Shown here in pieces: positions 25,018 to 46,167 of a stretch of DNA of 64,000 nucleotides. This DNA is from an uncultured Pseudomonadales bacterium. Its GTDB lineage: Bacteria; Pseudomonadota; Gammaproteobacteria; Pseudomonadales; Pseudohongiellaceae. The notes beneath the pieces were generated by a model. It worked only from the letters and a program-made list of their open reading frames with translations, made no database searches and had not been told where the DNA came from. The stretch lies in contig CAJQHM010000037.1 of NCBI GenBank assembly GCA_905478195.1, positions 1 to 64,000 of the forward strand, in the 5' to 3' direction. The stretch's first letter is position 1. Every line of letters starts with the position of its first letter. Both the position numbers and the translations under genes were made by a program.

Positions 25018-25452
25018 ATCCTTCTTCTATTCGGTTTTCTTGATATTTTAAGAGGGTGAGCTTAGCAAAATTTTACTCTCACCCCAATTGTTTATATGCC
25101 GCATCAACGGGGCACAGATCCTCCGATACATCCCGGCAAAGCAGCCTCGCCCAAGCGATTATCTGCCTCCTCGACGTCATTGCTCTCATTACCGTAAACT
25201 TTCTTATACTGGGGGTTGGCCTGTACAGCTTGATGGCTCTCTACCTGCTGTGAACTGGGCTGAACGCTCGCTACCTCGGCCATGATTATTTGAATATTCG
25301 GACACTAATGAGCGCCACCATGACTCGCGCACTTCCTGTCATCTATATTTGTATACTCGCAGGCATGGTAACCACTAGTTTTACCCTGCGCTTTCCTTGG
25401 TTACCTCAATGGATTCGTTTCAATAGGCTTCGCCCGTTTCGGATTCGCCTAC

Positions 25453-45243: not shown

Positions 45244-45639
45244 TTAAACGCGTCGCTTCTTAGGCGGTCGACAACCATTGTGTGGAATTGGCGTGACGTC
45301 TGTAATATTTCCGACTCGAAGACCGCAATTATTTAACGCTCTAACAGCTGATTCACGACCAGGACCAGGTCCATTAACCTTTACGTCCAAAGTCTGCAAT
45401 CCATAAAGTTCGATTGCCGCTTTTCCTGCTTTCTCAGCTGCAACCTGTGCCGCGAAGGGCGTGCTCTTTCTAGAGCCACGAAAACCGGAACCACCGGCAG
45501 TCGCCCAGCTCAATGCATTTCCCTGACGATCGGTAATAGTGATGATCGTGTTATTAAAAGATGCATGAATAAAAGCAAGACCATCGATAACGGCATTGCG
45601 GGTTTTCTTTTTAGTCGACTTCTCTGCTGGCTTAGCCAT
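45244..45639 (-). CDS. rpsK: 30S ribosomal protein S11
   Basis: [29 protein letters not shown]. Confidence 0.98.
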
Positions 45640-45675: not shown

Positions 45676-45748
45676 GGGGTCAGAGTAAAAACTCATCGCC
45701 TGACTTATAATATCCACTGAACTTTAAAGGAGTTTTTACTCTGACCCC
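45676..45748. repeat. Perfect 19-bp inverted repeat with 35-nt spacer (REP/RAYT-type or MITE-like candidate)
   Basis: GGGGTCAGAGTAAAAACTC (45676..45694) and GAGTTTTTACTCTGACCCC (45730..45748), exact reverse complements, in the rpsM-rpsK spacer. Confidence 0.9.
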
Positions 45749-45757
45749 ATTTGGCAA

Positions 45758-46114
45758 TTACTTGCGAATAGGCTTACGTGGGCCTTTTCTGGTTCTTGCA
45801 TTTGTTTTGGTGCGCTGCCCACGAACAGGTAGGGAACGACGATGACGAATACCGCGGTTACAACCTAAATCCATCAGACGCTTAATATTCATCGAAACTT
45901 CGCGTCGCAGATCACCCTCAGTTATGAGGTTCGCTACTTCCGCGCGAATAGTGTCTAGTTGCTCAGGGCTAAGATCACTAGTCTTCGTAGAAGGCGTGAT
46001 TCCAGTCTTGTCACAAATCGCGCTTGCGGTAGTTGGACCGACTCCAAAAACATAACGCAAAGAAATAACGATATGCTTGTTGTCGGGTATGTTGACTCCG
46101 GCAATACGTGCCAT
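45758..46114 (-). CDS. rpsM: 30S ribosomal protein S13
   Basis: [26 protein letters not shown]. Confidence 0.98.
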
Positions 46115-46167
46115 AAAGGTGCTCCGTTCTCTACTATTCTTAACTACGAATTCAGTCTAAATCAGGA

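Follow-up and report, generated by a model that had tools for sequence, protein, structure and literature searches.

A 73-bp hairpin in the spacer between rpsM and rpsK

The ribosomal protein genes rpsM and rpsK lie next to each other in the window (by which we mean the whole stretch of DNA analysed, 64,000 nt), and the spacer between them holds two exact 19-nt inverted arms separated by a 35-nt loop. The window belongs to a genome of 2.97 Mb that is 95.7% complete and is labelled G000; related genomes carry other G-numbers. The features of the locus are as follows:

45244..45639, minus strand: rpsK (S11), the downstream gene, whose start lies 36 nt past the element
45676..45748, no strand: the element, a REPIN-like TIR dimer of 73 bp, non-autonomous
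45676..45694, plus strand: left TIR arm GGGGTCAGAGTAAAAACTC, within which GGGGTCAG fits the TIRYT consensus GGGGWSAS
45695..45729, no strand: loop of 35 nt, site-specific, whose homologues occupy this site in sister species
45730..45748, minus strand: right TIR arm GAGTTTTTACTCTGACCCC, the exact reverse complement of the left arm
45758..46114, minus strand: rpsM (S13), the upstream gene, whose stop codon lies 9 nt before the element on the mRNA
46082..46164, minus strand: Alpha_RBS-like S4 control site at the rpsM start (28.6 bits, under the 38-bit gathering cut-off)

Because both genes are on the minus strand, the mRNA runs from the rpsM stop codon through 9 nt, the element and a further 36 nt to the rpsK start codon. 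A preliminary description of this DNA had reported a perfect 19-bp inverted repeat with a 35-nt gap at 45676-45748, and the arms are indeed 100% complementary. It had also called the spacer normally short, which is right in part: spacers without the element are 5-69 nt long within the genus and 58-60 nt long in the closest empty relatives. Of all perfect inverted repeats in the window whose arms lie within 100 nt, this one is the longest. GGGGTCAG, and with it a match to GGGGWSAS, is present at both outer ends, and the 15-mer GGGGTCAGAGTAAAA, with up to two mismatches, occurs three times in the window against 0.07 expected (three reached in 0 of 100 shuffles). At 25071-25085 the window also has a lone arm (GGGGTGAGAGTAAAA, minus strand; one mismatch) beside a degenerate inverted partner, probably a decayed element. 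A search of Rfam matched the element to no family, its only matches being Alpha_RBS upstream and an sRNA at chance level, and a literature search by the motif GGGGTCAGAGT and its complement gave no description of a bacterial repeat among the matches listed.

On the mRNA strand the element has a predicted fold of -35.8 kcal/mol (z = -4.2), a stability equalled in 0 of 200 shuffles, with a continuous stem of 19-20 bp. A stem this strong might act as an attenuator or intrinsic terminator that separates rpsM from the distal operon, and a partial attenuator had been proposed. An intrinsic terminator would show a GC-rich stem followed by a U-tract; here GAATCGAG comes after the 3' arm on the mRNA strand, ATTTGGC on the other, and the loop is about 35 nt long. 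Since neither strand has a U-tract after the stem and a terminator scan found none at the element, the attenuator is unsupported, and we regard it as highly improbable. The suggestion that the hairpin could alter S4 control fared no better, the S4 site being upstream of rpsM and clear of the element.

Copies of the element and their link to Y1 transposases

A second full copy in G000 (C37:73580-73653) lies between nusG and rplK, 6 nt past the nusG stop codon, and has a different loop with its own inner stem (TTTCC/GGAAA); in relatives this site has the element present, damaged or absent. The genome-wide count called for in the preliminary description thus gives two full copies in G000 plus several single arms. 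Recurrence in other Gammaproteobacteria, also anticipated there, was borne out as well: the GGGGTCAGAGT...ACTCTGACCCC pair is found in 23 of 84 genomes of the genus and in 13 of 369 genomes of the class (12 of 272 genera), and among the matches listed from public genomes, Seongchinamella, Halioglobus, Thiohalobacter and Alteromonadaceae records carry the element.

Across genomes we gathered 114 distinct sites at which the TIRs are dispersed as dimers, with total lengths that peak at 70 and 73 nt. These sites were collected with a search pattern made of the outer 12 nt, so the invariance of those 12 nt is by construction. Arm positions 13-15 are nearly invariant, positions 16-21 are variable yet paired (position 16 is paired in 91% of sites vs 59% after shuffling), and pairing reaches background by position 22. 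Moreover, in 27 sequences (24 of them intact 73-mers) the stem shows 46 double-sided changes vs 14 after shuffling, a number matched in 0 of 500 shuffles. One loop type is shared by G013:C2:87931 (upstream of 23S), G013:C4:82007 (another intergenic site) and G047:C27:543 (after tyrS), which is a sign of past copying of 73-nt elements. (Flanks are often symmetric among the 114 sites, as TTT/AAA or AAT/ATT, which in some genera lengthens the inverted repeat outward, to AGATTTGGGG.)

TIRs with the consensus GGGGWSAS, dispersed singly and as dimers, are known from TIRtrons, whose transposases (TIRYT) are Y1 tyrosine transposases related to RAYTs (Di Nocera et al. 2013, PMC3733652) and have been placed in TnpAY1 subclass 2.1 (PMC6006769). 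In seven relatives (G008, G047, G013, G076, G081, G087 and G012), though not in G000, the arms studied here flank Y1_Tnp transposons that are complete or almost so, which upholds the proposed link to transposases of the Y1_Tnp/RAYT type. The transposons are about 809-835 bp long, with ends such as GGGGTCAGAGTAAATATCCAGTAGTTT or GGGGTCAGAGTACTTTGATTT, and their Y1_Tnp genes mostly encode about 243 aa. The transposase proteins that we tested scored 48-61 bits for PF01797, Y1_Tnp being the one Pfam family above cut-off, and 64-73 bits for the NCBIfam REP_Tyr_transpos model (cut-off 80 bits); their HUH and QRYIEMNP motifs fit the class-2 Y---NP signature. The HUH and Y---NP motifs, the GGGGWSAS tag, the occurrence of TIRs as singles and dimers, and the location near gene 3' ends (reported for REPs in PMC3733652) are all shared with TIRtrons, whereas the longer common arm GGGGTCAGAGTA(AAA), the subfamily-specific inner arm and the absence of a cognate gene from G000 are points of difference. 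The C-terminal HTH/DnaA-like domain of subclass 2.1 (PMC6006769) was undetected by Pfam in the tested proteins.

G087 has a miniature of 71 nt at a distance of 1.6 kb from an 834-bp transposon, from whose left end it takes about 26 nt and from whose right end about 44 nt; the first 25 nt of the transposon are matched exactly and its last 40 nt at 39 positions, and by this sequence comparison the miniature is an internal deletion of its neighbour. In G047, 44-bp palindromes equal two joined 23-nt transposon ends. Sister Y1 genes bear related ends (GGGGACGGAGGGATT..., GGGGACAGATTTATTTT...), and Y1 genes scoring at least 40 bits are found in 16 of the 23 genomes of the genus that carry elements and in 8 of the 61 that do not (Fisher p = 1.2e-6). 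Arms that bound Y1_Tnp transposons, together with the deletion derivative in G087, argue that the element is a non-autonomous, REPIN-like TIR dimer.

The G000 assembly itself, where a RAYT gene was to be looked for, yielded no cognate transposase; its two Y1 matches are a gene on C113 that has different ends and contains a stop codon, and, on C25, a weak match of 327 aa, so the element is an orphan in G000 as far as the assembly shows and its present mobility is doubtful. Within the genus no complete transposon has exactly the AAAAACTC-type inner arm, the closest ends, AAATATCCAGTA, having 14 nt in common; we therefore infer the enzyme that mobilises this subfamily. A plasmid search with the whole G047 transposon returned one distant partial transposase match and nothing else.

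The layout is that of REPINs (Bertels and Rainey 2011, PMC3116915): an inverted doublet with conserved ends of about 16 nt, a variable spacer of near-constant length (GI doublets measure 71 bp), a hairpin with compensatory stem changes, and a tie to a Y1 transposase. This layout and the Y1 link would also suit a classical REP/BIME mobilised by a GTAG-recognising RAYT. The arms nevertheless follow GGGGWSAS and have no GTAG/GTGG foot, the partner is of the TIRYT type instead of a clade-I RAYT, and copies are far fewer than for REPINs, with just two full ones in G000. The tag already contradicts this explanation, to which we give very little credence; of the original label, REP/BIME or MITE, the kinship with mobile elements stands and the classical REP/BIME gives way to the TIR/TIRYT branch.

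Age of the insertion and conservation of its arms

We read the rpsM-rpsK spacer in G000 and 29 relatives and built a tree from rpsM, rpsK and rpsD. Eight of 14 related species have the element at this site (G000, G092, G100, G008, G013, G047, G090 and G079), and six are empty (G041, G059, G101, G097, G017 and G076), with spacers that resemble those of outgroups. This pattern of filled and empty sites, the comparison of which had been suggested at the outset, argues that the insertion is old and not recent. A single gain with several later losses or allele exchanges is the best fit, recombination being possible and the tree resting on short genes. The exact insertion junction is unreadable because the spacers have diverged, none of the empty sites being similar enough to show it. 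The loops of the eight filled alleles are homologous. (An invertible switch was considered and rejected, the loop having one orientation in all eight orthologues.)

Orthologues at the rpsM-rpsK and nusG-rplK sites, both first known from G000, were found by way of their flanking genes, independently of the arms; the pattern search supplied a third site, MoxR-DUF58. By parsimony, the outer 15+15 nt underwent 4, 11 and 12 changes and the loops 30, 61 and 39 (rpsM-rpsK, nusG-rplK and MoxR-DUF58, respectively). When pooled, this amounts to 27 changes over 90 arm sites vs 130 over 100 loop sites (p = 4e-15), arms being about four times slower; note that alignment artefacts account for some of the MoxR arm changes and so raise the count for the arms, and that the G090 copy at nusG, which has shrunk to a palindrome of 37 nt, was excluded. 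Between G000 and G013 or G079, third codon positions differ by 36-37% and arm positions at 0 of 30, and against the distant G079 the interior of the element differs at 19 of 43 positions. Arm damage is mostly found in a few copies: G090 (left arm) and G092 (inner arm altered) at rpsM-rpsK, G079 and G097 at nusG, and G041 and G100 at MoxR. Slow arms beside fast loops, together with the covariation of stem positions 16-20, suggest from sequence comparison that arms at fixed sites are under constraint.

Arm identity might instead be kept by hairpin-templated (quasi-palindrome) repair with no selection at all, as would befit the compensatory inner-stem changes seen within sites (AACTATT/AATAGTT to AACCAGT/AATGGTT at MoxR; GGGG/CCCC to GAGG/CCTT in G090 at nusG). 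Such repair maintains complementarity and not one particular sequence, whereas the outer 15 nt are identical in sequence across species; we think it decidedly improbable. Another reading is that TIR dimers and TIRYT form a maintained host system, in which the transposase or another reader of the GGGGTCAGAGTAAAA arm would act at long-lived post-stop hairpins, few in number and several of them ribosomal, with selection preserving the arms at the same sites in different species. Among site-copies, arms are intact in all 11 from genomes that have a cognate TIRYT, against 7 of the 13 from genomes that lack one (one-sided p = 0.013), a count in which species are not independent, kinship is ignored and copies were scored by eye. 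A covariance model run across 14 genomes found intact copies also in G059, where no cognate was detected, so we treat the trend as weak, and we hold this reading as a whole to be quite unlikely.

Position of the element and its possible effect on the host

Of the 114 sites, 50 separate co-directional genes, 32 convergent and 19 divergent ones; the other 13 fall within mechanical ORFs. Co-directional sites lie a median of 19 nt past the upstream stop codon and 47.5 nt ahead of the next start codon, and 22 of the 50 are within 15 nt of the stop; the same near-stop bias is reported for REPs (Di Nocera et al., PMC3733652). At sites with a distance of -13, in G070 and elsewhere, the element arm supplies the stop codon of the ORF (G GGG TCA GAG TAA). 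Elements also lie just past secY and upstream of rpsM in G100 (L075:765-836) and probably at G092:C40:28678 and G090:C59:369, past rpoA and before rplQ (G081), past an rpsU-like ORF and before yqeY (G088), 8-14 nt after tyrS and, in both G100 and G013, at 35-80 nt ahead of 23S. Two identical 72-mers in G100 were rejected as a sign of recent mobility, as they sit in the 23S-5S spacers of two rRNA operons, where a GGGGACAG...CTGTCCCC palindrome is found too. Ribosomal loci look over-represented among the elements in the genus, the count being post hoc.

According to work cited in PMC12306157, E. coli REPs less than 16 nt from a stop codon down-regulate translation. Like the E. coli REPs within 15 nt of stop codons that are summarised there, the element is a stem-loop close behind a stop and inside an operon; it differs in having an unrelated sequence. 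Given that it is not a terminator, leaves the S4 site untouched and has the post-stop position of E. coli REPs, an effect on the host is plausible and probably small.

The element might also be a domesticated cis-acting RNA, a hairpin kept by host selection because it sets the ratio or stability of rpsM versus rpsK-rpsD-rpoA-rplQ mRNA. Conservation of the arms against a diverging loop at orthologous sites (including the comparison with G079), the near-stop position with its E. coli precedent, and the several sites within ribosomal loci speak for this. The element is nevertheless dispensable, since six of the 14 species do without it at rpsM-rpsK; arms are damaged or altered in G090 and G092; and the sequence of the outer 15 nt is conserved more than a hairpin alone requires. 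We judge domestication possible and rather unlikely.

In our assessment the element is very probably a non-autonomous TIRYT-type miniature with a site-specific loop that entered just past the rpsM stop codon in the ancestor of one subclade of the genus. Mobilisation would presumably have proceeded through single-stranded DNA, with TIRYT acting in trans. Since then the element has been inherited, or exchanged through recombination at the rpsM-rpsK site, and both of its arms have hardly changed as the loop diverged. Within the transcript the element would form a hairpin of 19-20 bp, 9 nt beyond rpsM, whose likeliest effect would be mild and post-transcriptional, of the E. coli REP kind (3' exonucleases blocked, or ribosomes slowed near the stop codon), and would uncouple rpsM from rpsK-rpsD-rpoA-rplQ.

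The origin of the element, as a REPIN-like TIR dimer of a TIRYT transposon, is ordinary; its place is unusual and informative. It bears on whether palindromes of the REP, REPIN and TIR types are parasites that the host does no more than tolerate or are retained by it, and specialist interest centres on the conservation of arms at fixed sites. Here single copies can be traced at one site through several species, with the loop as an internal yardstick, and with filled and empty alleles and the presence or absence of TIRYT besides, so that the question can be put to the test one site at a time, and in an essential operon. The element is thus a clear test case for the maintenance of TIR/REPIN-type elements.
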